DNA of 64,000 bases from positions 1 to 64,000 of the forward strand of contig NKIP01000021.1 in NCBI GenBank assembly GCA_002256145.1, in the 5' to 3' direction. Positions 17,898 to 52,881 of this stretch are shown here, piece by piece (the stretch's first letter is position 1; the number at the start of each line of letters is the position of its first letter). The DNA is from Comamonadaceae bacterium PBBC1. GTDB lineage: Bacteria > Pseudomonadota > Gammaproteobacteria > Burkholderiales > Burkholderiaceae_C. The translations under genes and the position numbers were made by a program. A model generated the notes under the pieces. The model had not been told where the DNA came from, did no database searches, and saw nothing but the letters and a program-made list of their open reading frames with translations.

Positions 17898-18881
17898 TCA
17901 AACCAAAGCCACTGGAGCCGGAAATCCGTTGCGCCCGGGAAACTCGGGTGCCAATGGTCGGGCATTGGGCATCTTGACCCACAAGCGCCACATCTTGCGG
18001 TTGAGCTCGTGCACGCCGTGGTCTTCAAACTCGTTGCGCGAGTGCAGCACGGCGTAGTTGTTGGCAAATTGCAAATCGCCGGGCTCCAGCATCATGCTCA
18101 GGCGGAAATCTTCGCGGTGCATGATCTCGTCGAACAAATCGAGCGCTTCGATTTCGACCTTGGACAGCGGCAAATTGCGGATTTCATGGCCCAGCTCGAT
18201 GTACTGGCGCAGGTAGCGACAGCTGAGCTTGCCTTGGTGGTGGCTAAAAATCGGTGACAGGCTGGGCAGGTCTTCACACAGGTGCGAAAAATACCAGGTG
18301 CGGAAGTACAGACCCAGGTACTCGGGGTGCTTTTGCAAAATTTCGTTGTAGATCGCCGCCACACTCACCAGCGAACTCAAACCACCCTGCTTGGCCTTGC
18401 GCATGCACAACAGGCCCACCACGTCAGACGGGTCTGAGTGGTAAGGCAGGTAGAGGTTGGTTTCATAGACGCGGGTGGTCTTTTTCGTCACATCACCCAC
18501 GTTCATGACCAAGCCCAGCAGGTCGCCCTTGGGGTTTTGCCGAACAGGCACGCCCATGTGCAGACCAATGCCGTAGTAGATGATCTGAATGTCTGCTTCG
18601 CTGTAACGCTCGACCGGCAAGCCGCGCAGCACCAAAAATCCCCGACCGTTTTCCAGTTCGTCGCTGTAGGTTTTCAGGTCCTGCGCCCAGTCGCCAATCG
18701 GAAAGTCTTCGCGACTGAAATTGGGAAACGTCAGCCCTTTGGCCTTGACATGGGCCAGAGCGGCGTCGAGGGTTGCCAACACTTTCGGGCTTAAGACATG
18801 CATCCAAGTGGTGTCGCCGACCATGTCGGCGCCCTTCCAGACCGCTGGCCCGGTGATGGCTTGTTTCATGATCAGGCTCAT
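17898..18881 (-). CDS. TauD/TfdA-family 2-oxoglutarate dioxygenase
   Basis: The 327-residue protein has the facial triad of the TauD family: LPYHSDPSD near residue 138 (His and Asp), NNYAVLHSRNEFED near 277 (distal His) and NRKMWRLWV near 293 (2-oxoglutarate-binding Arg). LENGRGFLVLRGLPVERYSE near 77 is the typical N-terminal core. These enzymes oxidise a substrate carbon next to a heteroatom, for example taurine or betaines. The substrate is not evident and no sulfonate transporter is adjacent. It sits between glutaredoxin and the exported serine hydrolase on one strand. Confidence 0.85.
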   Translation of the reverse strand: MSLIMKQAITGPAVWKGADMVGDTTWMHVLSPKVLATLDAALAHVKAKGLTFPNFSREDFPIGDWAQDLKTYSDELENGRGFLVLRGLPVERYSEADIQIIYYGIGLHMGVPVRQNPKGDLLGLVMNVGDVTKKTTRVYETNLYLPYHSDPSDVVGLLCMRKAKQGGLSSLVSVAAIYNEILQKHPEYLGLYFRTWYFSHLCEDLPSLSPIFSHHQGKLSCRYLRQYIELGHEIRNLPLSKVEIEALDLFDEIMHREDFRLSMMLEPGDLQFANNYAVLHSRNEFEDHGVHELNRKMWRLWVKMPNARPLAPEFPGRNGFPAPVALV

Positions 18882-18919
18882 GGCGATTCCTTGAACGTGG
18901 ACACAGCCACAAAAGAGTT

Positions 18920-19162
18920 TTAACGGCCCAATTGCACCAAGGCGGCTTGCAAACCCGCCAAACCACCCACGCGCTGGTCGTTGATGAAGATTTGGGGCAT
19001 TTGGCGCACCGAAGGGCCACATTTTTCGTAAAAGGCCATGCGTTCGGCTTCGCCGTCGATTTTGATTTCTTCAAAGGCCAACGACTTGGACTTGAGCACC
19101 ATTTTGGCGGATTCGCACTGTGGGCAGGCGGACTTGGAGTAGACAACGATTTTGAGTTCCAT
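18920..19162 (-). CDS. Glutaredoxin-like protein
   Basis: The 80-residue protein starts MELKIVVYSKSACPQCESAK and has a CPQC active site near residue 13, a conserved cis-proline region MPQIFIND near 53 and VGGLAGLQ near 63. It is a single-domain cytoplasmic thiol oxidoreductase in the glutaredoxin/NrdH group. It precedes the TauD-like gene by 38 bases on the same strand. The exact partner is unknown. Confidence 0.85.
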   Translation of the reverse strand: MELKIVVYSKSACPQCESAKMVLKSKSLAFEEIKIDGEAERMAFYEKCGPSVRQMPQIFINDQRVGGLAGLQAALVQLGR

Positions 19163-19200
19163 GGCTTGGATTTTAGCCATGGCCATGCACGCAGGCGGCA

Positions 19201-19968
19201 TCAGGCCACGCGCGGCAAGACCACCCACTGCCCATCGAGCGCATGGATGCGAATTCGCTGGTCAAACACCGCCTCGATGGCGGCGTGCGTGGCCGCATCG
19301 CAGCCTGCGCCGTGGTGCACCACTTGGCCTTCGCACATGACCACGATGTCATCCGCGTGCAGCGCCATGCCGATCTCGTGCAGCACACTGAGCACGGTGG
19401 TGCCTTGCGCCAAGAGGCAATGCACCTGCTCCAACCAGTCGACTTGGTGCGGCGGGTCCAGGTTGGCCAGGGGCTCGTCCATCAACATGGTGGGCGCATT
19501 GCCCGCCATGGCGCGGGCCAGCAGCACGCGTTGGCGCTCGCCACCCGACAGCTCGCCCAGCATGCGCTCGCGCCAATCCCAGGCCTGTGTGGCCTTGAGG
19601 GCGGCTTCGACCATCTGCGCGTCTTGCGCGGAGGGTGCAGCCAGCCAGCTTTGGTGCGGCAAGCGGCCGAGCATGGCCACGTCCCACACCCGCAAATCCA
19701 GCGTGCTGGCTTCGCCCTGCCCCAGCCAGGACAGTTGCAGCGCCCTTTGTTGGCGGGTGAGTGAGGCCAGCGGCTGGCCCTGCCACAGCACTTGCCCGCT
19801 GTGTGGCAACAAACCCGCCAGCGCCTTGAGCAAGCTCGATTTGCCCGCCCCGTTGGGGCCGACCACACAGGTCCAGCGGCCTGCTGCGATCTGCAGGTCA
19901 ATGCTTTTGAGGACCTGACGCCCACCCAACTCGGCGCACAGTTGCCGGGTTTGCAGCGCGGCGCTCAT
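19201..19968 (-). CDS. btuD: ABC transporter ATPase for cobalamin (BtuD-like)
   Basis: The 255-residue ATPase has Walker A GPNGAGKSS near residue 35, the signature LSGGERQRVLLARA near 131 and Walker B MLMDEPLANLD near 156, with LHEIGMALHADD as the switch-histidine region. It belongs to the FecCD-permease-associated iron-siderophore/B12 group. Its start overlaps the permease gene stop by four bases. Location in a riboswitch-led operon supports vitamin B12 import. Confidence 0.9.
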   Translation of the reverse strand: MSAALQTRQLCAELGGRQVLKSIDLQIAAGRWTCVVGPNGAGKSSLLKALAGLLPHSGQVLWQGQPLASLTRQQRALQLSWLGQGEASTLDLRVWDVAMLGRLPHQSWLAAPSAQDAQMVEAALKATQAWDWRERMLGELSGGERQRVLLARAMAGNAPTMLMDEPLANLDPPHQVDWLEQVHCLLAQGTTVLSVLHEIGMALHADDIVVMCEGQVVHHGAGCDAATHAAIEAVFDQRIRIHALDGQWVVLPRVA

Positions 19969-20969
19969 GAACGCACCCCCATGTCGGCATCGAGGTACAC
20001 GCGCCAAAGCAAATAGCCCCCGCCCAGCACCGCCGTGAGCACGCCCACGGGCAGCTCTTGTGGTGCCAACATCACACGGGCCATCACATCGGCCAGCACC
20101 AGCAAGGCCCCACCCATCAGGGCCGACAAGAGCAAGCGCCAAGCGTGTGTGCAGCGCACCAGCGAGCGCACCAAATGCGGCGCGGCCAAACCGACAAACG
20201 CCACCAGCCCGATGTGCGCCACCGCCGCCCCCGTGGCCAAAGAAACCACACCCACCAGCACCATGCGGGCCAGTGGCAGCGGCACGCCCAGGCTTTGCGC
20301 GGTGGCTTCGCCCAAACTTAAAGCGTCCAGCACACGGGCAAAAATCCAGGCCAGCACCATGCACAAGGCCAGCACCACCGACATGGTGGCGCAGGCGCTC
20401 CAGCTGACAAACGCGGTCGAGCCCAGCATGAAGCCCTGCATGGCCTGCAAGACTTGGGGCTGCAGCAGCGAGATCAAAGACGTGACCGCCCCCAACACCA
20501 CGCCCACCACCACGCCCGCCAACAACAGGCGCAGGGTTTGTTGCACACCACGCGCCAGCAGCAGTGTGAGCACCACGGCCAGCACCGCACCCACAAAGGC
20601 CGCGCCCGTGAGGCCCAGGCCCAGCCAAGCGGTCATGGCCCAAGCGCTGCCACCCCACAAGCTCAAATACACACCCACCCCCAGCGACGCGCCCGAGGCA
20701 CTGCCCAGCAAATACGGATCGGCCAGGGGGTTGCGAAACAGGCCTTGCGCCACCGCCCCGGCCAGGCCCAGCAAGGCCCCGCCCAGCCACGCGCCCAGGC
20801 TGCGCGGCAAGCGGATCTCCCACACGATCTGGCGCGACACCGCATCGGCCCCTGCCAACCACCAGGCCTGCCAGCCCTGACTGCCAGCGGCGGTACCCAG
20901 CACCACCACGGACAGGCCCACGGCCAAGAGCAGCAATGCCCAGCGAGATGCTTGGCTGTGTGTGTTCAC
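19965..20969 (-). CDS. btuC: FecCD-family permease for cobalamin (BtuC-like)
   Basis: A 334-residue inner-membrane permease with about ten hydrophobic segments and FecCD-family landmarks: LPRSLGAWLGGALLGLAG near residue 55, NPLADPYLLG near 81 and GLAAPHLVR near 239. It would form a dimer with two BtuD-like ATPases and receive B12 from BtuF. It overlaps genes on both sides by four bases, so the transporter is translated as one unit. Confidence 0.9.
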   Translation of the reverse strand: MNTHSQASRWALLLLAVGLSVVVLGTAAGSQGWQAWWLAGADAVSRQIVWEIRLPRSLGAWLGGALLGLAGAVAQGLFRNPLADPYLLGSASGASLGVGVYLSLWGGSAWAMTAWLGLGLTGAAFVGAVLAVVLTLLLARGVQQTLRLLLAGVVVGVVLGAVTSLISLLQPQVLQAMQGFMLGSTAFVSWSACATMSVVLALCMVLAWIFARVLDALSLGEATAQSLGVPLPLARMVLVGVVSLATGAAVAHIGLVAFVGLAAPHLVRSLVRCTHAWRLLLSALMGGALLVLADVMARVMLAPQELPVGVLTAVLGGGYLLWRVYLDADMGVRS

Positions 20970-40520: not shown

Positions 40521-42080
40521 TCAGAACAAAGCTTTGTATTGATCGCGCAGCAGGTTTTTTTGCACCTTGCCCATGGTGTTGCGCGGCAACTCGGGCACCA
40601 CAAAACAGCGCTTGGGGATCTTGAAGTTGGCCAGTTTGGCTTTGAGCTCGGCCAAAATGGCTTCAGGCTTCACGTCAGCCCCGGATTTGGCAATGACCAC
40701 CGCCACGCCCACTTCACCAAAATCGGGATGGGACACACCGATGACGGCACTTTCGGCCACACCAGGCATCTCGTTGATATAGCCCTCGATCTCGGCCGGG
40801 TACACGTTGTAGCCGCCGCTGATGATCAAGTCTTTGCTGCGGCCCACGATGGTCACATAGCCACGTTCATCCACTTTGCCCACATCGCCCGTTTTGAAGA
40901 AGCCGTCAGCGGTGAACTCTTCGGCAGTTTTTTCAGGCATGCGCCAGTAGCCCTTGAAGACATTGGGACCTTGCACCTGAATGCCCCCGATCTCACCCAC
41001 GGGCATGTCTTGGCCATCGTCGCCACGCACGCGCAAGGACACGCCCGGCAAGGGAAAGCCCACCGTGCCACCGCGCCGCTCAGACTGCTCGGCATAACGC
41101 TGGTCAGCCGCATAGGGGTTGGAGGTCAGCATGGCGGTCTCGCTCATGCCATAGCGCTCCAAGATGGTGTGGCCTGTGCGCTGCTGCCATTCGGTGAAGG
41201 TCTCGATTAGCAAGGGGGCGGAGCCCGCGATGAACAATCGCATCTGGCTGACCGCCGCCTTGTCGAGGGTGGGCTCGGCCAGCATGCGCACATACAGCGT
41301 GGGCACGCCCATGAAAACGGTGGCCTCTTTCATGCGGGCAATCACGCGTTTGGGGTCGAACTTGGCCATCCAGATCATCTTGCTGCCGTTGATCAGGGCA
41401 CCATGAATGGCCACGAACAGGCCGTGCACATGGAAGATGGGCAAGGCGTGGATGAGCACATCCCCCTGGCCTGCAGGCCCACCGGTTGCCGTCCAGCCCC
41501 AGTAATCCTTGAGCGTGAGTGCATTGCTCAGCAAATTGCCATGTGTGAGCATGGCCCCCTTGCTGCGGCCGGTGGTGCCGCTGGTGTAAAGGATGGCGGC
41601 CAGGTCATCGGCCAGTCGCGGTACGGGGGTGTGCTGGTCGCTGTGCTGAGCTGCACGGTCGAGCAAGCTGCCGGTGCGGTCGTCATTCAAGGTGAACACA
41701 TGCTGGGTGCCTGCCTTGAACGCGATCTTGCTCACCCAGCCAAAATTGGCCGCACTGCACACCACCACGGCCGGTTCGGCATTGCCAATGAAGTACTCGA
41801 TCTCAGCGCTTTGATAGGCGGTGTTGAGTGGCAAAAACACGCAGCCCGCACGCAAGCAAGCCAGATAAAGCACCATGGCTTCGACCGATTTTTCGACCTG
41901 CACGGCCACCCGACTGCCCTCGGGTAAATCCAGCGATTGCAGCAAATTGGCCACCATGGCCGTGGCGCGATCAAGGTCTTGCCAGCTGTACAGCAAGCCC
42001 TCGTCGGTTTCAACCGCTACAGCGCTCAAATCGTCTGGAAATGCAGCTCGCAAAGCGGAAAAAAGATTGTGGTGACTCAT
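40521..42080 (-). CDS. matB: Malonyl-CoA synthetase-like acyl-adenylating enzyme
   Basis: A 519-residue ANL-superfamily enzyme with the AMP-binding motif ILYTSGTTGRSKGAMLTH near residue 163, LERYGMSETAML near 310 and the hinge VTIVGRSKDLIISGG near 409, with C-terminal lysine in LPRNTMGKVQKN near 502. The N-terminus and spacing fit MatB-type malonate or methylmalonate CoA ligases better than long-chain acyl ligases, but specificity is not certain. It is 69 bases downstream of a Bug protein on the same strand, which may bring in the acid. Confidence 0.72.
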   Translation of the reverse strand: MSHHNLFSALRAAFPDDLSAVAVETDEGLLYSWQDLDRATAMVANLLQSLDLPEGSRVAVQVEKSVEAMVLYLACLRAGCVFLPLNTAYQSAEIEYFIGNAEPAVVVCSAANFGWVSKIAFKAGTQHVFTLNDDRTGSLLDRAAQHSDQHTPVPRLADDLAAILYTSGTTGRSKGAMLTHGNLLSNALTLKDYWGWTATGGPAGQGDVLIHALPIFHVHGLFVAIHGALINGSKMIWMAKFDPKRVIARMKEATVFMGVPTLYVRMLAEPTLDKAAVSQMRLFIAGSAPLLIETFTEWQQRTGHTILERYGMSETAMLTSNPYAADQRYAEQSERRGGTVGFPLPGVSLRVRGDDGQDMPVGEIGGIQVQGPNVFKGYWRMPEKTAEEFTADGFFKTGDVGKVDERGYVTIVGRSKDLIISGGYNVYPAEIEGYINEMPGVAESAVIGVSHPDFGEVGVAVVIAKSGADVKPEAILAELKAKLANFKIPKRCFVVPELPRNTMGKVQKNLLRDQYKALF

Positions 42081-42149: not shown

Positions 42150-43145
42150 TCAGTCGAGTTTGGCACCCGATGCCTTCACGACTTGAGACCACTTGGCCAG
42201 CTCTTTCTTGATAAAAGTATCAAATTGACTGGTAATTAGATTTGGAAAATCGGCGCCTTGGTTGGCCCAAACGGCTTTGGCCTCATCAGTCAGACAAGCG
42301 CGACGAATTTCTTCGATGGCCCGAGCTTGCGCATCGGCAGGCGTTCCCTTAGGTGCCCAGACGCCATACCAAGTGGAAACGGTGTAATCGGGCAAACCCA
42401 ACTCGGTTGAGCAGGGAACATCTGGAAAGGCCGGATTTCGTTTGGCACCCGAAACCATCATGGCCTTGACTCTGCCGCTTTTGATGTGCGTTGCCGATGA
42501 GCCCAAACCATCAAACATCATGTCTACATTGCCCGCAATCAGGTCTTGCAATGCAGGACCTGCACCACGATACGGTATGTGAGTGATGAATGTTTTGGTC
42601 TGAAGCTTGAACAACTCACCGGCCAAATGATGAGAGGTTCCGCCACCGGCGGAGCCATAGTTCAAACGAGCTGGGTTCTTTTTAACAAAGTCCAAAAACG
42701 CTTTGAAATCAGTCGCTTGAACTTTTTTAGGGTTCACCACCAACACTTGGGGCACATTGGCCACCAAAATCAGCGGCACCAAGTCACGTTCGAGATCGTA
42801 ATCAAGTTTTGGATACATGCTGGGCGCTATCGTGTGATGCACTGCGCCCATGAACAAGTTGTAACCATCTGGAGACGATTTAGCTGCCACTCCGGCACCC
42901 AAAGTACCCCCGGCCCCACCACGGTTATCAATGATCAGTTGCTTGCCCGTTAATTTGGAAAACTGAGCCGACAAAGGTCTGGCAAACGCATCTGTCCCAC
43001 CACCGGCAGGAAATGGAACCACCATCGTCACTGGCTTGGTGGGCCAAGCAGATTGGGCTTGAGCCCAAAGCGGGATTGCACCCGAAACGGCGGCCAAGGT
43101 TTTCAGAAAATCCCGACGCTGGCTCACTAGGTTTGAATCTGTCAT
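42150..43145 (-). CDS. Bug/TctC-type periplasmic solute-binding protein
   Basis: The 331-residue product has an export signal with RRDFLKTLAAVSG (twin-arginine-like) and the Bug fold: PTKPVTMVVPFPAGGGTDAFAR near residue 37 and DNRGGAGGTLGAG near 74. Bug proteins bind carboxylates or aromatic acids for tripartite tricarboxylate transport (TctAB), but no TctA or TctB is nearby. The ATG at 43145 has AGGAGACA just upstream. Its position before matB suggests an organic-acid ligand. Confidence 0.88.
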   Translation of the reverse strand: MTDSNLVSQRRDFLKTLAAVSGAIPLWAQAQSAWPTKPVTMVVPFPAGGGTDAFARPLSAQFSKLTGKQLIIDNRGGAGGTLGAGVAAKSSPDGYNLFMGAVHHTIAPSMYPKLDYDLERDLVPLILVANVPQVLVVNPKKVQATDFKAFLDFVKKNPARLNYGSAGGGTSHHLAGELFKLQTKTFITHIPYRGAGPALQDLIAGNVDMMFDGLGSSATHIKSGRVKAMMVSGAKRNPAFPDVPCSTELGLPDYTVSTWYGVWAPKGTPADAQARAIEEIRRACLTDEAKAVWANQGADFPNLITSQFDTFIKKELAKWSQVVKASGAKLD

Positions 43146-43292
43146 GACGTGTCTCCTCTTTTTGGTGGGAGTGCGCATCATAAAGTCTTTGACACCGAAT
43201 GACCGCAGCAGGTGTCGCACAAAAATCAGAGGAATTGCGCAACAGGCAAGAGCCCTCTGTCTGCCAGCAAGATCAACAATCTGCAGGAGTTT

Positions 43293-43961
43293 TCAAAAGG
43301 ATGCCAAAGTATGCACAGCCCATTCAAATCCTTTTTCGGGCTGCTGCACGTCCAGCTGAACAACTCGCAATCCACAACGCAAGGCACCGTCAATATTTCG
43401 TGGCTGGTCGTCCACGAACACCGCGTGCTCGGCCCGCACCCCCAAAGCCTGCAAACAAGCTTGGTAAGCGCGCGGGTCGGGCTTGAGGATCTGGGTGTAA
43501 GTGGCGTCCACGATCACGTCAAACTGCTGGAGCAAGGGCAAACGCTCGCGAAAATCAGCCCCGTAAAACAGGTCCAGCTCGTTGGACAAAATGCCCAGCT
43601 TGTAGCCCAGCGCCTTGGCTTGGTGGATGGCCGCCACCGCTTCGGGCCGGATCACGGCCTGCACATCGGCCCCCCGGGCACGCTGGACAAAGGTTTGCAT
43701 CGCGGTCCAGTCTTCCCCCAGCAAGCGCCCGACCTCGCGGGTGCGCTGCAGCCAGTAATCGCGTTCACTGATCTGATCGGCCTGCATGGCTTGCCACAAC
43801 GCATCGGTTTCTGGGGCAAACGGGCCTTGCCAAGTGAGCGTGCCGGCGGCCAGGCCCAAAGCGGCTTCACTCAGGGCGTGGGTTTCAAACAGGGTGCGGC
43901 TGATGACGCCGCCAAAGTCCAGAATCAAAGCCTTGTCTTCGGGTTTCACGGCATCAGACAT
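43293..43961 (-). CDS. HAD-superfamily hydrolase at the end of the amine operon
   Basis: The 222-residue product starts MSDAVKPEDKALILDFGGVI, where the HAD motif I is D-x-G-G-V (second Asp replaced by Gly, as in several HAD-IA phosphatases). Motif II (LGILSNELD) is near residue 121, motif III lysine in QILKPDPRAYQ near 155 and motif IV FVDDQPRN near 179. A phosphatase or dehalogenase-like role is possible. It overlaps the Tm-1-like gene by eight bases. Confidence 0.8.
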   Translation of the reverse strand: MSDAVKPEDKALILDFGGVISRTLFETHALSEAALGLAAGTLTWQGPFAPETDALWQAMQADQISERDYWLQRTREVGRLLGEDWTAMQTFVQRARGADVQAVIRPEAVAAIHQAKALGYKLGILSNELDLFYGADFRERLPLLQQFDVIVDATYTQILKPDPRAYQACLQALGVRAEHAVFVDDQPRNIDGALRCGLRVVQLDVQQPEKGFEWAVHTLASF

Positions 43962-45213
43962 GTGAGGCTTTCTTGCCCACAGCGGGCACCACCAGCCCAC
44001 GCGCAAGCCAATCGTCAAACACTGCAAGCACCTGCTGCACAAAGCCCGCATCGTTGATGTGTGCATCGATGCGCGAGACCTCGGCCGCGCCCCAATCGCA
44101 TTGCACCATTTCGTCCATCATCGCGGCCAGACCTTCTGGATCGTGCAGCGGTGCACCGACCCGGTCCCACTCTTGTATACCTTGCAGGGGCAGCACCAGA
44201 TGCACCGGGCCTTGCGCCTGACGCAAGCGGTTGGTCAACTCCCGAGCAAATTCACGGCGCATGTCTGCGTCGATGCCCACCGACGCGATCAGGCGGTTGT
44301 GGTCGTGTGAGGGCCGCCCGGCAAAGCGCTCGGGCATCTGACCCCAGGCGGGGTAATCCACCAGGTCGGTCGCACCCGGGGCGACGATCATGGGCACGCC
44401 TTTGAGGCCAGCGCCCATCAAGCGGTCCGGCCCCGCGCTCACCACCGAGCCGCCCATCTGGTTGACCATCTCCTGCAGGCTGAAATCCATCACGCAGGCG
44501 AACTGACCTTGTGCAGCCAGCGATTCAAACGCCCGGCCCCCCATGCCTGTGGTGTGAAACACCGCCAGGTCAAATCCGCGTTTGTCGAGTTCGGGCTGCA
44601 GTTGAACCATGTATTTCAGGCAACTCGAGCCCAAGGACGTCATGCCCACCACCGGCCGGTCAAAACGCGGCACCCGCGCCACGCGGCAGGCCCCCACCAC
44701 CGCGCCTGCGGCTTGGGCCAGCGCCGACTGGCACAGGCTGTTGAGGCCGTAAAGGCCGCCCGCCCACAGCACCATCATCAAATCGGGCGGCATGCGCTCA
44801 GGTGGCAACAGGGGCGAAAACGCCACCGTGGACAACACCACTTTGGGCACGCCCAGCGGCAAGCTGCTGGCGACATCGAGCGCCAAATCGGTGCCCATGG
44901 TGCCGCCCAGCACCAGCAAGCCGTCCATGCTGCCCGTGCGCTGCAATTGCACCGCCAGGCGACTTGCACCCAGGGCCATCAAGGCCATGGCGCTGTTTTC
45001 GTCGCCACTGTCCATGACCTGCTGCAGCGTCACGCCCGCAGCTGCAGCCACATCGGTGTTGGCGATGTCCGGGACCACACGCCCTTTGGCCAGCACGCCC
45101 ACGTCCATGATCAGTGCCTGGCCACCAGCGGCCTGCACCTGCTCGCGCATGAAGCCGATCTCGTCGCTCTTGGTGTCGACGGTGCCGACGATCAGGATGA
45201 CCGGGCTCTTCAT
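43954..45213 (-). CDS. Tm-1-like (UPF0261) ATP-binding domain protein
   Basis: The 419-residue protein matches the UPF0261/Tm-1-like family: SPVILIVGTVDTKSDEIGF near residue 3, MDGLLVLGGTMGTDLAL near 95, GMTSLGSSCL near 188 and HDHNRLIASVGIDADMRREF near 304. The family has an N-terminal ATP-binding part and a C-terminal TIM-barrel-like part; plant Tm-1 binds a viral replicase, but the bacterial role is unknown. It overlaps the aminotransferase gene stop by four bases, so it is part of the operon. Confidence 0.85.
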   Translation of the reverse strand: MKSPVILIVGTVDTKSDEIGFMREQVQAAGGQALIMDVGVLAKGRVVPDIANTDVAAAAGVTLQQVMDSGDENSAMALMALGASRLAVQLQRTGSMDGLLVLGGTMGTDLALDVASSLPLGVPKVVLSTVAFSPLLPPERMPPDLMMVLWAGGLYGLNSLCQSALAQAAGAVVGACRVARVPRFDRPVVGMTSLGSSCLKYMVQLQPELDKRGFDLAVFHTTGMGGRAFESLAAQGQFACVMDFSLQEMVNQMGGSVVSAGPDRLMGAGLKGVPMIVAPGATDLVDYPAWGQMPERFAGRPSHDHNRLIASVGIDADMRREFARELTNRLRQAQGPVHLVLPLQGIQEWDRVGAPLHDPEGLAAMMDEMVQCDWGAAEVSRIDAHINDAGFVQQVLAVFDDWLARGLVVPAVGKKASHV

Positions 45214-46574
45214 GCGCGGCCCTCCTGCACAGCCGCAAACGCGGCTTCGAGCACGTCGCACATGAAGTCGACCTCCTCACGGGTGATGACCAGCGGCGGT
45301 GACAGGATCAGGTTGGGGCCGGAGATGCGCACCATCAGGCCCGCTTTGTAGGCCGCCTTGGCCACCCGCGCCGGGATGTCGCTGCTGCGTGTCATCGGCG
45401 TGCGTTTGGCCTTGTCGCTCACCATCTCGATGCCCAGCATCAGGCCCACACCACGCACATCGCCCACAAAGGCGCAGGTGTCCACCAACTTGCGCAAGCG
45501 GGTCTGCAGGTGCGCGCCCACACGGGCGGCGTTGCCGGTGATGTCCAGCGCCTCGATCTGGTCGAGCGTGGCCAGTGCCGCAGCAGCCGCCACCGGGTGC
45601 GCGCTGTAGGTGTAGCCGTGCGAGACCGAGGCCGTGCCCGTGGTGTCGGCATCAAACACGTCGGCAATGCGGCGGTTGATGGCCGTGGCCCCGAGCGGGA
45701 TGTAGCCCGAAGAAATGCCCTTGGCCAGGCACCACATGTCGGCATTCACCCCCCAAAGGCGGGTGCCAAACATCTCGCCGCTGCGGCCAAAGCCGGTCAC
45801 CACCTCGTCGGCGATCAAGAGCACGCCGTATTTATCGCAAATCTGGCGCACCAGCGGCCAGTAGTTGGGCGGCGGCACGATCACCCCGCCCGCGCCCTGC
45901 ACCGGCTCGGCAATGAAAGCGGCCACCGTGTCCGGCCCCTGAAAGACGATCTCGCGCTCCAGCAACTCGGCGCAGATTTCGCCCAGTCGGATCGGGTCAT
46001 CGGTGTAGGGGTTGTGGTAGGCCCAAGGCGTGTCGATGTGGAAGCACCCGGGCAGCAGCGGCTCATAGGCGCGGCGGAAATTGGTGTTGCCGTTCACGCT
46101 CATGCCGCCAAAGTGCACACCGTGGTAACCCTGGCGCAGGCTGATGAACTTGAAGCGGTCGGCCTGACCCTTGAGCTTCCAGTACTGGCGGGCCACCTTC
46201 AATGCGCCCTCCACCGCGTCCGAGCCACCGTTGGAAAACATCACGGTGGCCACGTCTTCGGGCTGCATCATTTGCACCAGGCGTTTGGACAACTCGATCG
46301 CCCGCACATGGGTGGTGCCGCGGAACACGTTGTAAAAAGGCAGCTCGTCCATCTGCGCCACGATGGCGTCGCGCACAGGTTTGTTGCTGTGGCCCAGGTT
46401 GCAGGCCCACAGCCCCCCCACGCCGTCCAGCATCTTGTGGCCATCTACATCCCAGATCCAGCAGCCCTCGCCTTTGGCGATGATGTCGGGGGTGGATTTT
46501 TTCATCGCCCCCGGGTGGGCCATGGGGTGCCACAGGTATTGCGCGTTGTCGGCCTTGAGTTGCTCGTGGTTCAT
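45210..46574 (-). CDS. Class III aminotransferase (omega-amino acid/pyruvate type)
   Basis: The 454-residue fold-type I PLP enzyme contains VMFSNGGSDAVEGALKVAR near 109, LLIADEVVTGFGRSG near 252 and the PLP lysine in CLAKGISSGYIPLG near 285. It is closest to omega-amino acid-pyruvate or diamine aminotransferases (SpuC-like). It would remove an amino group from an amine or omega-amino acid made by the upstream genes. It lies 17 bases after the aldehyde dehydrogenase gene. Confidence 0.88.
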   Translation of the reverse strand: MNHEQLKADNAQYLWHPMAHPGAMKKSTPDIIAKGEGCWIWDVDGHKMLDGVGGLWACNLGHSNKPVRDAIVAQMDELPFYNVFRGTTHVRAIELSKRLVQMMQPEDVATVMFSNGGSDAVEGALKVARQYWKLKGQADRFKFISLRQGYHGVHFGGMSVNGNTNFRRAYEPLLPGCFHIDTPWAYHNPYTDDPIRLGEICAELLEREIVFQGPDTVAAFIAEPVQGAGGVIVPPPNYWPLVRQICDKYGVLLIADEVVTGFGRSGEMFGTRLWGVNADMWCLAKGISSGYIPLGATAINRRIADVFDADTTGTASVSHGYTYSAHPVAAAAALATLDQIEALDITGNAARVGAHLQTRLRKLVDTCAFVGDVRGVGLMLGIEMVSDKAKRTPMTRSSDIPARVAKAAYKAGLMVRISGPNLILSPPLVITREEVDFMCDVLEAAFAAVQEGRA

Positions 46575-46591
46575 GTCGCGTACTTTCAAAA

Positions 46592-48076
46592 TCAAAGCTG
46601 AATCCAGGCCGTTTTCAGGTCCAGGTATTTGTCCATGGCATGCATCGACTTGTCGTGCCCATTGCCCGACTGCCGCACCCCGCCCAGCGGCACGGTGATG
46701 TCGGGGCCGCCATAGGTGTTGACGTGCACCAGCCCGGCCTTGATGGCGCGCACCATGCGGTGGGCACGAGACAGGCTGCCCGTCCAGACACCTGCGGCCA
46801 GGCCGTATTCGGTGCCATTGGCCAAGCGCACGGCCTCGGCCTCGTCCTCAAACGGCATCACGGCCAGAACCGGGCCAAAGACTTCTTGCCGGGCAATCTC
46901 CATCTCGGGCTGAACGCCATCGAGCACGGCGGGGCTCATGAACTGGCCACCAGGCACAGGCGCAATCACCTGACCACCGGTGCGCAGACGCGCGCCCTGC
47001 TCTAAAGCACGGGCCAGCATGCTCTGGTTGCGGGCCAGTTGGCGGGCGCTGCTCACGGCACCAATGTCCATCGTCACATCCAGCGGGTCACCCACACGCA
47101 GGCTGGAAGCGATGTTTTGCAAGCGATCCACGAATTCGTCATGCACCGAGCGCTGCACCAAGAGGCGCGAACCCGCCACACACACCTGACCGCTGTTGCG
47201 GAAGATGCCCATGGCCGAGACCTTGGCCGCCTGCGCCAGATCGGGCGCATCGTCAAACACCACATTGGGCGACTTGCCGCCCAGCTCCAGGTACACCCGC
47301 TTGAGGTTGGACTCGGCCGAAGCCTTGAGCAACATGCGTCCCACTGGGCCCGATCCGGTGAAGGTCAAGATGTCCACGTCCATGTGCCGCGCCAGCGCCT
47401 CGCCCGCCTCAGCGCCGGTGCCGGTGACCACATTGAGGACACCCGGCGGCAAGCCCGCATCCAGGCACAGCTGCGCCAGGCGAAGCAAAGACAGCGAGGC
47501 GTCTTCGGACGGCTTGAGCACCACCGAGTTGCCTGCTGCAAGCGCTGGGGCGATCTTCCAGGCACCGATCATCAGCGGAAAGTTCCAGGGCACGATGGCC
47601 CCCACCACGCCAACCGCCTCCTTGTGGATCAGCCCCAAGGTGCCTTCTGGGGTAGGGGCGATCTCGCCGTTGATCTTGTCCACACACTCGGCGTAGTAGC
47701 GGAAGGTGCCCGCAGCACTGCCCGGCTCGGCCTTCCAGGCCATCGCAATCTCGGTGCCGTTATCGCGCACGCCCAGCACCGCCAGCTCGGCGTGGTGCGC
47801 CTCGATGCGGTCGGCGATGCGGTGCAGAATTTTCTTGCGCTCGGCCGGCGCCATGCGCGACCACACGCCTTGCTCAAAACTGCGGCGGGCCGCCTGCACC
47901 GCGCGGTCGACGTCCACAGCCCCGGCAGCGGCGATGCTGCAAAGCGTCTGCCCGTCGATGGGCGAGACCACGGGCAAGGTCTGGCCAGATGCTGCGGGCT
48001 GCCACTGGCCGTCGATCAGCAGGCCTTGGTGGGCAATGGGCAAGTGGCGCAGTGCGTCGATGTGTTCTTGTTTCAT
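46592..48076 (-). CDS. PuuC-like aldehyde dehydrogenase
   Basis: The 494-residue NAD(P)-dependent enzyme has the catalytic Glu in YLELGGKSPN near 264 and Cys in NSGQVCVAG near 298. The C-terminus SGNGHDKSMHAMDKYLDL closely resembles E. coli PuuC (gamma-glutamyl-gamma-aminobutyraldehyde dehydrogenase). It would oxidise an aldehyde made from an amine to the acid. The position between the ferredoxin and aminotransferase supports amine catabolism. Confidence 0.88.
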   Translation of the reverse strand: MKQEHIDALRHLPIAHQGLLIDGQWQPAASGQTLPVVSPIDGQTLCSIAAAGAVDVDRAVQAARRSFEQGVWSRMAPAERKKILHRIADRIEAHHAELAVLGVRDNGTEIAMAWKAEPGSAAGTFRYYAECVDKINGEIAPTPEGTLGLIHKEAVGVVGAIVPWNFPLMIGAWKIAPALAAGNSVVLKPSEDASLSLLRLAQLCLDAGLPPGVLNVVTGTGAEAGEALARHMDVDILTFTGSGPVGRMLLKASAESNLKRVYLELGGKSPNVVFDDAPDLAQAAKVSAMGIFRNSGQVCVAGSRLLVQRSVHDEFVDRLQNIASSLRVGDPLDVTMDIGAVSSARQLARNQSMLARALEQGARLRTGGQVIAPVPGGQFMSPAVLDGVQPEMEIARQEVFGPVLAVMPFEDEAEAVRLANGTEYGLAAGVWTGSLSRAHRMVRAIKAGLVHVNTYGGPDITVPLGGVRQSGNGHDKSMHAMDKYLDLKTAWIQL

Positions 48077-48118
48077 GATTTCTCCCTACGTTCAATGGAT
48101 CAGTGGTCCGAAAAATTT

Positions 48119-48433
48119 TCAGTCAGGCACATGCAGCACGATGCCGTCCAGCGCAGCAGAGGCCATCAGCTGGCAGCTCAAGCGGCTGCCGCTTTGGCGT
48201 GGCGCGATGACGATGTCGAGCATGGCGTTTTCGACCTCATCCATCGGCGGGCAAGCAGCCAGCCAGGCTTCGTCGACGTAGACGTGGCAAGTGGCGCACG
48301 ACAGACAGCCACCGCATTCGCCCGCCACGCCGGGGATGCCGTTCATCTGCGCGGCGTCCATCAGGTTGGTGCCGTCGTTCACGTCGTCGCTCACGCGGTC
48401 GCCGTTGCTCATGATCCAGTGCACTTGGGGCAT
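48119..48433 (-). CDS. Plant/adrenodoxin-type [2Fe-2S] ferredoxin
   Basis: The 104-residue protein has the cluster motif C-x5-C-x2-C in GECGGCLSCATCHVYVD near residue 39, plus a fourth cysteine in SRLSCQLM near 86, the adrenodoxin/putidaredoxin layout. This type donates electrons to class I P450s. It is 17 bases after the ligase gene and two genes downstream of the P450. No ferredoxin reductase gene is in the cluster. Confidence 0.92.
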   Translation of the reverse strand: MPQVHWIMSNGDRVSDDVNDGTNLMDAAQMNGIPGVAGECGGCLSCATCHVYVDEAWLAACPPMDEVENAMLDIVIAPRQSGSRLSCQLMASAALDGIVLHVPD

Positions 48434-48450
48434 GGGTGGGTTCTTTCAGG

Positions 48451-49743
48451 TCAGATGAATCGGATGTAGTGGTCGCGCAGCGCATCGCCTTCGAGGCCTG
48501 CGGTGCGTTCGATCTCGTGGCGCTTGATGCCCACATGGTTGGCCACCAGGCCTTCGCCCAGCGCTTGCGTCAGCACGATATCGGCTTCGAGGGCATCTAG
48601 CGCACCCTCCAGGGTGCCGGGGACGCTCTGGGTCGCGTCCTTGTTTTCGAGGCAGTCGCCGGTTTCGGCAGGCTGCAGTTTGTAAGCATTGGCCACGCCC
48701 AAACGGGCGGCCTGCAGCACGGCGGCGGTGTGGGTGTAGGGGTTGGCGGCAGCGTCGCCCATGCGGTGCTCAATGCGTGCGCCCGGACCGCTTTCAGCCG
48801 ACAGGCGCACCGTGACGCCCCGGTGGTCCACCGCCCAGTTTTGCCAGAAGCCCGAAAGGCTGGCCGGTTGCAGGCGCTGGTAGGAGTTGGCGCTGGGGGC
48901 CAACAAGCCCGCCAAAGCCTGGTGGTGGTGCATCAGCCCTGCCGTGCAGCCGAGCGTCAATGCATTGAACTGGCTGGCGTCGTGGCCGCCCGAGATCGCA
49001 TTGTGGCCTTGGCCGTCACGCAGGCTGAAGTTGATGTGCACCCCGCTGCCCCCCACGGTGAGGATGGGTTTGGGCATGAAAGTCAACACAATGCCGTGCT
49101 GGAAAGCAACTTCGCGGGCCAGCAGGCGGAACAAAAAGATGTCGTCTACCGCCTTCACGGCACGGTCGTATGTCAGCGTGAACTCGAACTGCGGCGCGTC
49201 GTATTCGGTGTTCATGCTGTCGATGCGAAAGCCCGCGGCCGTGGCCTTTTCCCACAAGGCGTCGGTGAAGCCCCTCGGATCGGAGAATGGACCGGTTGAA
49301 TACACATGGGCCGCAGGCGTGTCGTAGGGTTTGAGCGAGCCGTCCGGCTCGATCTGGAAGGCAAAGGCTTCGAGCTCAATGCCCACCATCGGGTCGTAGC
49401 CCATGGCCTGCCAGTCGGCCACGGCACGCTTCAAGGCGCTGCGCCCGCACATGGGCAGCGGTGTGCCGTCGTTGGCTTTCAGATCGCCAATGGCCACTTG
49501 GGTGAACGGCTGCCAGCCCGGGCGGATGTCGTCGGCGGTGTAGACCGCCTCCATGTCGGGCAGGCCTTCCATGACCATCGCACCCGGGGCAGGAATCAGC
49601 TCTTTTTCATACGTCACGCCAAAAGTGCCGCGACAAAAACGGGCACCGCCGCCCTGCCCGGGTTGGAGCGTGACGTATTTGCCCCGCGCAATGGCCAGGT
49701 GGTCACAAAACAGCACCCGCAGGCGTTCTTGAACATTCGACAT
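48451..49743 (-). CDS. Glutamine-synthetase-like gamma-glutamyl-amine ligase
   Basis: The 430-residue protein has the GS catalytic fold: EYDAPQFEFTLTYDR near residue 174, GSGVHINFSL near 225, SYQRLQPASLSG near 286 and ARIEHRMGDAAANPY near 322. The N-terminal domain is short and true GS-I adenylylation features are not seen, as in PuuA-type and aniline/isopropylamine gamma-glutamyl ligases. It would join glutamate to an amine using ATP. It lies 23 bases after the P450 gene. Confidence 0.85.
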   Translation of the reverse strand: MSNVQERLRVLFCDHLAIARGKYVTLQPGQGGGARFCRGTFGVTYEKELIPAPGAMVMEGLPDMEAVYTADDIRPGWQPFTQVAIGDLKANDGTPLPMCGRSALKRAVADWQAMGYDPMVGIELEAFAFQIEPDGSLKPYDTPAAHVYSTGPFSDPRGFTDALWEKATAAGFRIDSMNTEYDAPQFEFTLTYDRAVKAVDDIFLFRLLAREVAFQHGIVLTFMPKPILTVGGSGVHINFSLRDGQGHNAISGGHDASQFNALTLGCTAGLMHHHQALAGLLAPSANSYQRLQPASLSGFWQNWAVDHRGVTVRLSAESGPGARIEHRMGDAAANPYTHTAAVLQAARLGVANAYKLQPAETGDCLENKDATQSVPGTLEGALDALEADIVLTQALGEGLVANHVGIKRHEIERTAGLEGDALRDHYIRFI

Positions 49744-49766
49744 GGTGATTCCTTTCAAACCTAGGT

Positions 49767-51032
49767 TCAGATGAGGTGCATGCGCACCGGCAGGCGTTTA
49801 ATGCCACAAACAAAATTCGAGCGCAAAAAGGCGTGTTCGCCTGTTTGCTCAATGCGGTCGACACGTTGGATCAACTCTTGCAGCAAGACGCGCAACTCCA
49901 GCCGCGCCAGCCACATGCCCAGACAGGCGTGCGCCCCGCCCTGCCCAAACGACAGGTGGCGGTTCACGCCCCGGCTCAAGTTGACAGTGAAAGGCTGCTC
50001 AAAGGCCCGCTCGTCGCGGTTGCCCGAGATGAACCAGAGCAGCACCTTGTCGCCCGCCTTGACATGTTTGCCGTGGTAATCAAAGTCCTCGGTCGCGGTG
50101 CGGCGAAAGTGCGTGGCGGGTGAGGCCCAGCGGATGAACTCGTCGGCCACGCCCTCCCAAGCGGCCTCGCCCTGCACCGCCTTGAGCTGCGCCATGAGGC
50201 CCGGTTGGTTGGCCAGCGCATGCAAAGCCGCCGCAATCGAATACCGCGTGGTGTCGTTGCCCGCTGCCACCAGCAGGCAAAAGAAATTGCGAAATTCGGT
50301 GTCGCTGATCACATTGCCTTGCGCATCGGGCTGGGTGATCAGGTGCAGCACGCCGCTGGTGTCGCCCGCTGCGCGTTTGCGCTCCATCATCTGGGCCGCG
50401 TAGTCGAACAAGTCGGCCCCTGCAGGCGAGCGAAACGGCATGAAGCGGTAGGCCTCGGTGTCCATCTTGTCGACGACATGGCTGGTGAAGTCGCTGTCGG
50501 TGTTGGCCATGAGCGCATCGCCTTTGTCCACCAGCCAGTCCAGGTCTTCCTCGGGCAGGCCCGCGATGCGCCCGAGCATGCGCATCGGCAGCTGGCGGGC
50601 GATCTGGTGTGTGGCGTCAAACTCACCCAGCCCCAGCGCTTGGTCGAGGATGCCCACACAGAGCTCGCGGATTTGGTCTTCGTACAGCGCCATCATGGGC
50701 TTGGAAAAGGCCTTGGCCACCAGCATGCGGGTGCGGGTGTGCTCGGGCGGGTCGGTCTCCTGGAAGGTGCGCCGCGCCATGTACTCCTCGTGCGTCTGGT
50801 CCTCCATGCGGATGCCTTGGGCTGAAGACAAGCGCTGGTGGTTGCGGTTGAGCTCCAAGATGTCGGCATGCCGCGTGACCGACCAAAAGCCCTTGCCTTC
50901 GGACCAATCGCACCAGGCCATCGGGTCTTCGTCGCGCAGACGCTGGAAGGTGTTGTGCGGCGTGCCGTTCACATAGCTGTCGTGGTCCGCCAAATCGGCG
51001 TGGCCATCGTCGGTGGGGTGCCAGACGGTCAT
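49767..51032 (-). CDS. Cytochrome P450 (bacterial class I)
   Basis: The 421-residue soluble P450 has the I-helix AAGNDTTRYS near 247, the ExxR in DEFIRWASP near 290 and the haem-binding FGQGGAHACLGMW with Cys near residue 369. There is no membrane anchor. Class I P450s take electrons from a [2Fe-2S] ferredoxin, which is encoded in the same operon. It overlaps the amidotransferase-like gene by four bases. The substrate is unknown; a C-H or N-dealkylating oxidation of an amine or its gamma-glutamyl derivative is proposed. Confidence 0.93.
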   Translation of the reverse strand: MTVWHPTDDGHADLADHDSYVNGTPHNTFQRLRDEDPMAWCDWSEGKGFWSVTRHADILELNRNHQRLSSAQGIRMEDQTHEEYMARRTFQETDPPEHTRTRMLVAKAFSKPMMALYEDQIRELCVGILDQALGLGEFDATHQIARQLPMRMLGRIAGLPEEDLDWLVDKGDALMANTDSDFTSHVVDKMDTEAYRFMPFRSPAGADLFDYAAQMMERKRAAGDTSGVLHLITQPDAQGNVISDTEFRNFFCLLVAAGNDTTRYSIAAALHALANQPGLMAQLKAVQGEAAWEGVADEFIRWASPATHFRRTATEDFDYHGKHVKAGDKVLLWFISGNRDERAFEQPFTVNLSRGVNRHLSFGQGGAHACLGMWLARLELRVLLQELIQRVDRIEQTGEHAFLRSNFVCGIKRLPVRMHLI

Positions 51033-51766
51033 TCTTGATTTTTCCTTGCGTGTTCAAAAAACTGCACCATCCACTGGCCAAACAGCGGCACATCGGCGGC
51101 CTGCTGCAGGCTGGTGTGGGCGCGGGCCATGGTGTTCGTGTCGAGCTTGTCAGCCAAGTAGCCCAGCAGCGCCTGCATGAACACCAGCGGCATTTCGGGG
51201 TGGTACTGCGTGGTCCAGATGTGCTGGCCGATCTGCATCGAGCCAGTGGGGCAAAAATCGCTGCCACCCAGGCATTCGGCCCCCTCGGGCATGCGGGTGA
51301 CCTGTTCGTTGTGGGCGGCCATCAAGGTGGTGGTGCTTTGCGCGGGAAGCATCCAGGGGTGGGTGTGATGCCAGTGCGTGGGCGCTGTGCCCAAGCCCCA
51401 ACCCGCCGCGTTGCGCGCCACCTGCCCGCCCAGCGCTCGGGCCACCGCCTGGTGGCCAAAGCACAGGCCAATCAGCGGTTGGCGTGCGGCATGCACGGCA
51501 CGGATGAAATCCAGCAAAGGCCCGACCCAAGGCAGGCTGTCGTCGTTGACCGAAGCCGGGCTGCCGGTGATGACATAGCCATCAAAAGTCTCAGGGCCGC
51601 TCGGAAATACGCCGTCCTTGACCGAAACCACTTCAAAAGACCAGTCAGGCCGCAAGGGCTGCAGCAACTGGACGACCTTTTGACCGTCATTCGGAAAATG
51701 CGCGGCAAACGCCGAGGTGTCGTTGTTGGTCAGCAAAACGGCGATATGCAAGTTCGGCAGGTTCAT
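51029..51766 (-). CDS. Class I glutamine-amidotransferase-like hydrolase
   Basis: The 245-residue protein has the nucleophile elbow PLIGLCFGHQAVARALGG with Cys near 102 and the His-Glu pair in QYHPEM near 189. No synthase partner domain is present. Stand-alone proteins of this kind hydrolyse gamma-glutamyl amides, as proposed for AtdA2 in aniline catabolism. It is the first gene of the minus-strand operon and is divergent from the AraC-type regulator. Confidence 0.85.
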   Translation of the reverse strand: MNLPNLHIAVLLTNNDTSAFAAHFPNDGQKVVQLLQPLRPDWSFEVVSVKDGVFPSGPETFDGYVITGSPASVNDDSLPWVGPLLDFIRAVHAARQPLIGLCFGHQAVARALGGQVARNAAGWGLGTAPTHWHHTHPWMLPAQSTTTLMAAHNEQVTRMPEGAECLGGSDFCPTGSMQIGQHIWTTQYHPEMPLVFMQALLGYLADKLDTNTMARAHTSLQQAADVPLFGQWMVQFFEHARKNQE

Positions 51767-51921
51767 CGGGTGTCTTTCAAGCTGACAGCCATGCTATGCA
51801 CAAGGCGCTCATGGCGCTATCAAGTTTGGGCATCACACACCCCGGGTTTTCACGAAAAAGCCTGCCCATGCGAAACAGGCACACTCAGGTGCATGCCCCA
51901 GCTGACTGTTTTGACTTTTTG

Positions 51922-52881
51922 ATGACCTCACCCACCCCCGATTCGCCCTGGGTCCAAGTGCTCGACACCCAGGACATGGACCAGCACGCCCTGGCCCAGC
52001 AAGGCTGGGCGCTGCAGTACGAACAGCTCTCGCCCGGCCAGTTCAAGGGGCGTATCCACCAGGTTCACCTGCCCGAGGTGACGCTGCTGCGCGAAGACAC
52101 CAGCATCGCCTTACGCCAGCGCGGGCGGCTGCATGAGAGCGTGTACGGCTTTGCCATGGCGCTGCAGGACTCCTCCGACCTGTTTTTCAACGGCCAACGG
52201 GTGCCCGCCCACGCCATCATGTGTGGCAAGGGCGACGAGGTGGACCTCACCACCCCGCCCCACTTCACCCTGATGGCCGTGGTCGTCAACCGCAGCCTGC
52301 TCAACCCGCTGTGGGAGCGCATGTACCAAAAACCCCTGGCGCATTGGCTCGAAAAGCAGCTGGTGCTGCAAACCACCGACATCAAAGCCCAGAACCTGCG
52401 CGACATGCAGCTCACCGTCCTGGACCAGGCCAGCGCGCTGGCCCACCGCCAGCACGACCCCCAGGCCCTGCGCCAGCTGCGCGACGAGATCCTGATGGAA
52501 TGGCTCGAAGCCTTGCCTGCGAAGGTCGACACCTCGGAGTTGCCCACCCTGGAGCGGAGAAAAAAACTGGTGGACCGCGCCTGCGAGCTGATGCTGGGCC
52601 ACGCCGACGAGCCCTTGTCCATCTTGGAGGTATGCAGCCGTGTCGGCACGAGTCGGCGAAAGCTCAACTACTGCTTTCAGGACGTGCTGGGCACCACGCC
52701 CATCAAGTACCTGCGCTCGCTGCGCCTGAACAGCGTGCGCCGCGCCCTGCGCCAGGCTGCGCCCGGCGTCACCATCCAGGACATCGCCTCTCACTGGGGC
52801 TTTTGGCACCTGAGCCAATTCGCCCAGGACTACCGTCGCCTGTTTGGCGAGCTGCCCTCCGACACCCTGCACAAGAGATGA
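51922..52881 (+). CDS. EutR-like AraC-family transcription regulator
   Basis: The 319-residue protein has a C-terminal AraC helix-turn-helix pair (LEVCSRVGTSRRKLNYCFQD near 234 and IQDIASHWGFWHLSQFA near 283) and ends in LPSDTLHKR, close to E. coli EutR, the ethanolamine regulator. The N-terminal part starts DMDQHALAQQGWALQYEQLS, also EutR-like, and would sense an amine or amino alcohol. The ATG at 51922 leaves a 155-base divergent promoter gap; earlier in-frame ATGs at 51796 and 51868 are possible. Confidence 0.82.
   Translation: MTSPTPDSPWVQVLDTQDMDQHALAQQGWALQYEQLSPGQFKGRIHQVHLPEVTLLREDTSIALRQRGRLHESVYGFAMALQDSSDLFFNGQRVPAHAIMCGKGDEVDLTTPPHFTLMAVVVNRSLLNPLWERMYQKPLAHWLEKQLVLQTTDIKAQNLRDMQLTVLDQASALAHRQHDPQALRQLRDEILMEWLEALPAKVDTSELPTLERRKKLVDRACELMLGHADEPLSILEVCSRVGTSRRKLNYCFQDVLGTTPIKYLRSLRLNSVRRALRQAAPGVTIQDIASHWGFWHLSQFAQDYRRLFGELPSDTLHKR

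Follow-up and report, generated by a model that had tools for sequence, protein, structure and literature searches.

A cytochrome P450 operon with a predicted gamma-glutamyl-amine ligase in Comamonadaceae bacterium PBBC1 and its proposed link to homoprotocatechuate catabolism

What would a bacterium do with a glutamine synthetase (GS)-like protein, a cytochrome P450 and an aminotransferase encoded side by side in one operon? The question is raised by the minus strand of a 64,000-nucleotide stretch of Comamonadaceae bacterium PBBC1 (GCA_002256145.1, contig NKIP01000021.1, positions 1 to 64,000; hereafter the window), from a genome of 4.59 Mb in 60 contigs with a stated completeness of 100%. A preliminary description had read eight packed genes in the window as an amine-catabolic operon in which gamma-glutamylation is coupled to a P450. 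The explanation that we favor, with confidence slightly better than even, is that the operon is a funnel that carries a primary aromatic amine, most likely one of the phenylethylamines related to tyramine and dopamine, to homoprotocatechuate (3,4-dihydroxyphenylacetate) by way of gamma-glutamyl conjugates.

Gene content and conservation of the operon

The eight-gene operon at 43293..51766 is real, and the layout first described for it was borne out in coordinates, spacing and Pfam domain calls. The genes, in operon order, and the divergent regulator gene beside them are as follows.

51029..51766, minus strand: class I glutamine amidotransferase-like protein (GATase, PF00117), proposed gamma-glutamyl-amide hydrolase with an AtdA2-like role
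49767..51032, minus strand: cytochrome P450 monooxygenase (PF00067), proposed to act on the gamma-glutamyl conjugate
48451..49743, minus strand: predicted GS-like gamma-glutamyl-amine ligase (Gln-synt_C, PF00120)
48119..48433, minus strand: [2Fe-2S] ferredoxin (Fer2, PF00111), proposed redox partner of the P450
46592..48076, minus strand: aldehyde dehydrogenase (ALDH; Aldedh, PF00171), proposed arylacetaldehyde dehydrogenase
45210..46574, minus strand: class III aminotransferase (Aminotran_3, PF00202; PRK07481 subfamily, over cut-off), proposed arylethylamine transaminase
43954..45213, minus strand: Tm-1-like UPF0261 protein (N and C domains, PF06792 and PF23189)
43293..43961, minus strand: HAD-family hydrolase (PF00702)
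51796..52881, plus strand: divergent AraC-family protein (HTH_18; EutR-like match under cut-off), possible regulator of the operon

Adjacent operon genes are at most 42 bases apart, and three pairs overlap: GATase/P450 by 4 bases, aminotransferase/Tm-1 by 4 and Tm-1/HAD by 8. The P450–ligase gap is 23 bases, and the ligase ATG at 49743 has GAAAGGAA directly 5' of it; the remaining gaps measure 17 (ligase–ferredoxin), 42 (ferredoxin–ALDH) and 17 bases (ALDH–aminotransferase, with the aminotransferase ATG at 46574). A motif search with patterns that we take to describe the catalytic sites found these intact in the GATase, P450, ferredoxin, ALDH and aminotransferase of the window. For the AraC-family gene, a start at 51922 was considered and dropped, because relatives mostly align from residue 1 or 2.

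A scan of the genome collection with the ligase gave 93 relatives, the best 80 of which defined the loci compared here. All eight genes were found on one strand and in the same order in 30 of the 36 betaproteobacterial-type loci (L004–L038 and L068), so that this order is not due to chance. Contig ends cut five of the 36 (L013, L023, L034, L035 and L068), and L038 starts inside the P450 at a contig end and carries no ALDH, aminotransferase, Tm-1 or HAD gene in the 10 kb after the ligase. The AraC regulator is kept in 27/36, some of the remainder being cut. Some of the 30 complete loci contain inserted genes. An extra frame lies between ligase and ferredoxin in L022, L023, L029 and L033; that of L022 matches ferredoxin-NAD reductases, which fits a class I P450 chain. 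An added protein, in L022 a member of an amino acid permease family, precedes the ALDH in L022, L025 and L029. An insertion between ferredoxin and ALDH was also seen in L006, L011 (a C-5 cytosine DNA methylase) and L023 (a similar frame).

The spread of the P450 is patchy: it was detected in 34 of 90 Limnohabitans genomes, two of these being clearly partial matches, and in 4 of 299 genomes of the wider family sample, three of which are again Limnohabitans. L018, filed as an Akkermansia metagenome-assembled genome (MAG), carries a 96% Limnohabitans-type ligase and operon, and L049 and L050 are identical sequences binned as Flavobacteriia and as Roseobacter.

On the same strand, 3' of the operon, lie genes for a malonyl-CoA synthetase (40521–42080; PRK07514, over cut-off) and, by sequence reading, a TctC-like binding protein (42150–43220), at distances from the operon that differ among relatives. 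A malonate-semialdehyde route suggested by the former gene was dropped, because outside the betaproteobacterial-type loci malonyl-CoA synthetase gave only 23–24% matches in two loci and because its distance varies in Limnohabitans.

The GS-like ligase has lost the ammonium site

Ligase residues were scored in 79 relatives aligned to E. coli GlnA, to PuuA and to the aniline-type ligase of pLME1, with residue roles assigned as we presume them to be in GS. Residues of the metal, glutamate and ATP sites (E129, E131, E212, E220, H269, R321, R339, E357 and R359) are kept in 79/79, and all 79 have other residues at the ammonium-site positions D50, Y179 and E327, as do the pLME1 ligase and PuuA. Position 327 is occupied by Leu, Met or Ile in operon-type ligases, by Leu in the pLME1 ligase and by Tyr in PuuA. 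Given this loss, the GS-like protein should be a glutamate-amine ligase, with an acceptor other than ammonia, rather than an enzyme that makes glutamine. The residue pattern thus lends support to the amine gamma-glutamylation first suggested for this protein and renders improbable the outcome named as its refutation, a ligase making only glutamine. A true GS was rejected on the same grounds, and the genome has another GS, which scores 454.9 bits versus 242.9.

In a tree of 25 ligase sequences, the proteobacterial ligases of the operon kind (17 rows) clustered together (100/100), to the exclusion of the pLME1 ligase and PuuA; GlnA, PuuA and a Sagittula row lie on long branches, and their placement is unsure. 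The window ligase is ~26% identical to the pLME1 ligase, and its closest relatives are those of Limnohabitans (97–98%). The gene names in the pLME1 cluster are, as we take them, DcaQ and DcaT. Contig 12 of the PBBC1 genome (L096, 9393–10874) encodes a further GS-like ligase, 41% identical to that of pLME1, followed from 10955 by a ferredoxin-like frame 45% identical to the ferredoxin of the window.

The other operon proteins

The window amidotransferase has the Cys elbow GLCFGHQ and a YHPE sequence. The elbow is kept in 64 of 65 relatives with a near-full frame; for the HPE motif a strict pattern matched in 42 of the 65 and a looser one caught mixed sites, and the claim is limited to the Cys elbow. 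The protein matches only GATase PF00117, at E 0.001, and is 41.7% identical to the pLME1 protein over 56% of the length. The P450 carries the AGNDT, ExxR and heme Cys motifs, with identities of 62–73% within L038–L082 where present, 59% to Novosphingobium and 39% to Streptomyces canus. The four-Cys motif of the ferredoxin was found in the window and in 59/59 relatives with a near-full frame. The ALDH shares 66–67% identity with those encoded in the clusters of Ruegeria TM1040 and Shimia, 48% with PuuC and 40% with FeaB, and the best solved relative of the aminotransferase is an omega-transaminase. A PDB search with the HAD protein gave no match at 1e-10; its homolog adjoins the aminotransferase in L065 and L115. 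The UPF0261/Tm-1-like protein accompanies the ALDH in the window (43954–45213), in L084 and in L108, where hpa genes are also present.

Core genes beside ring-cleavage genes

The core of the operon (amidotransferase, P450, ligase and ferredoxin) recurs in Rhodobacteraceae and other Proteobacteria, in part near genes for homoprotocatechuate breakdown (hpa) or for an aromatic amino acid decarboxylase. The Shimia thalassica locus (L043) reads CHMI/HpaF, HpaE, HpaD_Fe, HpaD, HpaG-like, HpaH, HpaI-like and GntR, followed by amidotransferase (opposite strand), P450, ligase, ferredoxin, aminotransferase, IclR, TctCBA and ALDH. Next come a second class III enzyme and an APH-family protein, followed by the beginning of a Tm-1-like gene. 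CHMI/HpaF (PF02962), HpaE, HpaD_Fe, HpaD and HpaH of this locus are over curated cut-offs and HpaI and HpaG under; the names IclR, GntR and Tct come from sequence reading and the TM1040 annotation. For the second class III pyridoxal phosphate enzyme (18610–20846), the best solved match is a phospho-lyase, and homologs of it were seen in L044, L065 and L111; the idea that it and the APH-family protein might offer a route for beta-hydroxylated amines is put forward as an idea only.

Outside the main Limnohabitans set, 50 loci were mapped (L037–L067 and L069–L087), and the P450 is beside the ligase in 46 of them. At least 7 kb of upstream sequence was available for 38 of the 50, including L037, four plasmid loci, and L055 and L087, which have no P450. 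Among these 38, an amidotransferase is within 4 kb of the ligase in 28 and a ferredoxin directly follows it in 20; at least three hpa genes are present in eight, and an HpaI homolog only in five more. A second ring-cleavage set (LigB-type dioxygenase/FAH/acetoacetate-decarboxylase-like) occurs in 8/38 and either set in 16/38, with Tm-1 in six loci and TctA in 10. An aromatic amino acid decarboxylase (PF00282) is encoded in nine. The best PDB match of this decarboxylase is DOPA decarboxylase, and its gene lies inside the hpa operons of Ruegeria TM1040 and others; in TM1040 it stands between hpaD and an FAH-family (hpaG-like) gene, in an operon with HpaR, and the annotation has no HpaBC in the 28 kb covered.

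This second, distinct ring-cleavage set is seen in L085 (Novosphingobium), L086 and L087 (both Streptomyces plasmids), where the GS-like ligase is accompanied by LigB-type dioxygenase, ALDH, FAH and acetoacetate-decarboxylase-like genes; the P450 is beside the ligase in L085 and L086. On a Sagittula stellata plasmid (L098, 9920–13227), a ligase–amidotransferase–P450 triad of the same logic belongs to a different aromatic cluster, close to an annotated salicylyl-CoA 5-hydroxylase gene.

The second half of the operon was also followed in ten stretches, each centered on a strong HpaH, so that the presence of hpa genes in them is expected. In L108 (HTCC2150), homologs of the aminotransferase, ALDH and Tm-1 protein immediately adjoin the hpa operon, apart from the P450, with Tm-1 between the ALDH and hpa genes. 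The aminotransferase and ALDH are similarly placed in L111 (Planktotalea); an ALDH is beside hpa in L113, and L115 has HAD and aminotransferase genes at a distance of ~5 kb from hpa. The other six stretches (L107, L109, L110, L112, L114 and L116) showed neither an aminotransferase nor an ALDH of the operon kind.

Co-occurrence was then scored in 296 genomes of Rhodobacteraceae, the family of the L043 genome, using E ≤1e-120 for the P450 and E ≤1e-80 for HpaH. The P450 was present in 54 and HpaH in 113 (both, 52; P450 only, 2; HpaH only, 61; neither, 181). HpaH thus accompanies 52/54 P450-positive versus 61/242 P450-negative genomes, an odds ratio of 77 with p 1.3e-23, or 5e-22 without the four genomes already known to carry the core, both uncorrected for phylogeny. 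The two genes are within 30 kb of each other in 10 of the 52 genomes, three of these ten being previously known. In the genomes or records behind the loci, HpaH reaches at least 300 bits in 30/37 (25 over cut-off); of the seven without a strong HpaH, five have the second ring-cleavage set, and the remaining two, the MAG loci L053 and L055, have neither. In Limnohabitans an HpaD_Fe-type dioxygenase is present in 81/90 genomes, the P450 in 34 and both in 32 (p 0.47), a comparison that is uninformative because the dioxygenase is nearly universal.

Taken together, the placing of the core beside hpa genes and the decarboxylase, in part of the relatives, and the co-occurrence with HpaH point to aromatic amines of the phenylethylamine type rather than to polyamines or cyclic amines. 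The search for these genes elsewhere was one that the preliminary description had proposed.

The hpa operon of the PBBC1 genome

The PBBC1 genome has its own hpa operon, on contig 53, separate from the P450 operon. Over cut-off there are (bits, with the cut-off in parentheses) HpaR at 125 (121), HpaD_Fe at 447 (316), HpaE at 796 (638), HpaG C-type at 362 (276) and HpaH at 437 (352). Under cut-off are HpaG N-type, at 155 versus 229 and still the best match, and HpaI, which misses by 2.8 bits (366.0 versus 368.8). No HpaB (PF03241) match was obtained in this genome, and HpaB was found in 2/90 Limnohabitans genomes and absent from 88.

Proposed pathway and alternatives

For the favored funnel to homoprotocatechuate, the following route is proposed. 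The GS-like ligase would use ATP to link the gamma-carboxyl of glutamate to the amine, and the P450 would hydroxylate the conjugate, the ring being the likeliest site (gamma-glutamyl-dopamine from gamma-glutamyl-tyramine), with electrons arriving via the ferredoxin and a reductase encoded outside the operon. The amidotransferase-like protein would then hydrolyze the gamma-glutamyl bond, freeing the amine and controlling the level of conjugate, after which the class III aminotransferase would give the arylacetaldehyde, the ALDH the arylacetate, and the separately encoded hpa operon would cleave the ring. Tyramine would be the most economical substrate, as a single ring hydroxylation suffices for it and a single monooxygenase is encoded in the operon. 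Within this scheme we infer the identity of the substrate, the regiochemistry of the P450, the order of the steps and the roles of the Tm-1 and HAD proteins. Hydrolysis by the amidotransferase is also presumed to be productive; the Npa counterpart is described, in the passages available from PMC11335346, as dispensable and as reversing ligation.

A more specific version, which we offer tentatively, is a biogenic-phenylethylamine route in freshwater Limnohabitans and marine roseobacters, a P450 analog of the aniline system in which the P450 would act on gamma-glutamyl-tyramine instead of free tyramine or 4-hydroxyphenylacetate. Tyramine would pass through gamma-glutamyl-tyramine, gamma-glutamyl-dopamine and dopamine to 3,4-dihydroxyphenylacetate. 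Amines and gamma-glutamyl-amines would come from algae and invertebrates, and the kinase/phospho-lyase pair of some roseobacters would add beta-hydroxylated amines (octopamine and norepinephrine).

Several observations weigh against a funnel of this kind. Neither ring-cleavage set is within the fetched stretch in 22 of the 38 loci with upstream sequence; the aminotransferase is present in only eight and the ALDH in eight (one being L037, with a Limnohabitans-like operon); the eight loci with the second ring-cleavage set have no amidotransferase nearby; and L038 has the core without the second half. In the PBBC1 genome, HpaF gave no match in the one candidate frame tested, and no PF00282 decarboxylase was found, so that the amine would have to be imported. 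The hpa genes of Limnohabitans do not depend on the P450 operon, and shared ancestry inflating the P450–HpaH co-occurrence may be a factor. Finally, a Rhizobium MAG with the core (L039) encodes, close to its hpa operon (L114), a protein of the HpaB type that scores 768.6 bits, below its cut-off, which argues that the P450 is not simply a stand-in for HpaB; the idea of a P450 acting as pure HpaB substitute is weakened both by this and by 49 Limnohabitans genomes in which the hpa dioxygenase is present and the P450 is not.

In the main rival scheme the P450 would act as PuuB does, hydroxylating the carbon adjacent to nitrogen in a gamma-glutamyl-arylethylamine such as gamma-glutamyl-dopamine to release glutamine and the arylacetaldehyde, which the ALDH would convert to 3,4-dihydroxyphenylacetate. 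N-dealkylation is a common reaction of P450s, the ALDH is at hand in the operon, and the hpa linkage and the decarboxylase with DOPA decarboxylase as its best solved match serve this rival equally. It leaves the class III aminotransferase and the amidotransferase without an obvious task, however, and tyramine would require another ring hydroxylase in a genome without HpaB; we regard it as unlikely. Less probable again is an aniline-type arylamine substrate, with the ligase and amidotransferase as AtdA1/AtdA2 and the P450 replacing the Rieske dioxygenase to give an aminophenol or catechol for meta-cleavage. The ligase–amidotransferase–oxygenase logic of pLME1 (L100), the Leu shared with it at position 327, the Sagittula triad in another aromatic cluster and the lack of an aromatic amino acid decarboxylase in 7/8 loci with the second ring-cleavage set are all in keeping with such a substrate, but the low identity to the pLME1 ligase and its separate grouping, the links to aminotransferase, ALDH and decarboxylase, and hpa genes that best match homoprotocatechuate models are not.

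Two further readings have very little probability in our estimate. One is an operon that detoxifies mixed amines or scavenges nitrogen from them and has no dedicated catabolic product, to which the patchy spread and the weakly EutR-like divergent regulator would be suited; the strong HpaH co-occurrence and the eight-gene order in 30 loci are against it. The other, marginally the least probable of all, is a pathway for cyclic secondary amines (pyrrolidine, piperidine or morpholine) as in mycobacteria, in which the P450 opens the ring and the aminotransferase and ALDH process the amino-aldehyde. Such a pathway has no need of a ring-cleavage dioxygenase, whereas many genomes with the core also have hpa or LigB-type genes. 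PipA and MorA are nonetheless P450s for cyclic amines, and related Gulosibacter P450 genes are numbered next to a GS gene in the portion of PMC9477822 consulted.

Relation to known systems

The operon is closest in logic to AtdA1–A5, NpaA1–A5 and the pLME1 cluster, in which a GS-like gamma-glutamyl ligase, a class I amidotransferase-like hydrolase and an oxygenase are encoded together; it shares with them a ligase lacking the ammonium site in 79/79 relatives and an amidotransferase family gene, here a predicted hydrolase. It differs in having a P450 and ferredoxin and no two-subunit Rieske dioxygenase among its eight genes, in the addition of the aminotransferase and ALDH, and in its link to homoprotocatechuate genes. 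In the Npa and Atd systems, as far as set out in the passages of PMC11335346, the oxygenase cannot act on the free amine, AtdA2-type proteins hydrolyze the conjugate, and the product feeds ring cleavage, a destination that is also proposed for the operon.

With the Puu pathway of E. coli the operon shares the idea of a gamma-glutamyl ligase and an ALDH, and PuuA also lacks the ammonium-site Glu. The reported absence of PuuB holds among the eight operon proteins, the scope of that search, and no hydrolase of the PuuD family (Peptidase_C26) is among them. The ligase and ALDH fall far below the PuuA and PuuC equivalog cut-offs (184.6 versus 650 bits and 548.7 versus 850 bits), and a simple Puu variant was rejected on these grounds. 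Of the interpretation first given to the operon, gamma-glutamylation, the P450/ferredoxin coupling and the AtdA analogy are thus retained, and a Puu-type pathway in which a P450 simply replaces PuuB is not.

The adjacent P450, ferredoxin and GS-like gene recall the PipA/MorA systems in gene set, where we presume a GS-like gene to be near the P450 and ferredoxin; the difference is the link of the operon core to aromatic ring-cleavage genes. The hpa/hpc pathway for 4-hydroxyphenylacetate meta-cleavage is the proposed lower pathway, encoded elsewhere in the same genome; that pathway is usually entered through the action of two-component HpaBC on 4-hydroxyphenylacetate, and the PBBC1 genome lacks HpaB. 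Among the matches listed in the open-licence PMC literature, there was no description of a P450 acting on gamma-glutamyl-arylethylamines or of the combination seen in the operon. Its parts and their logic are familiar from these systems; what sets it apart is a P450 where they have a Rieske enzyme, and the proposed homoprotocatechuate destination. A homarine idea led nowhere among the literature matches listed.

Biological implications

An ecological link of the operon to the Daphnia gut and to invertebrate amines may be suggested. The parts of PMC12825155 available list Limnohabitans with the key gut bacteria of Daphnia and report that dopamine, L-DOPA, 3-methoxytyramine and octopamine change in that gut; for gastropods, gamma-glutamyl conjugation is given as a monoamine route in the accessible text of PMC6454038. 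If the proposed funnel is correct, the use of gamma-glutamylation as an activation tag for oxygenases would extend from arylamines and Rieske enzymes to natural phenylethylamines and P450s, and a number of freshwater and marine bacterial genes labelled "glutamine synthetase" and "P450", at present without an assignment, would gain a testable role in the turnover of tyrosine-derived amines.

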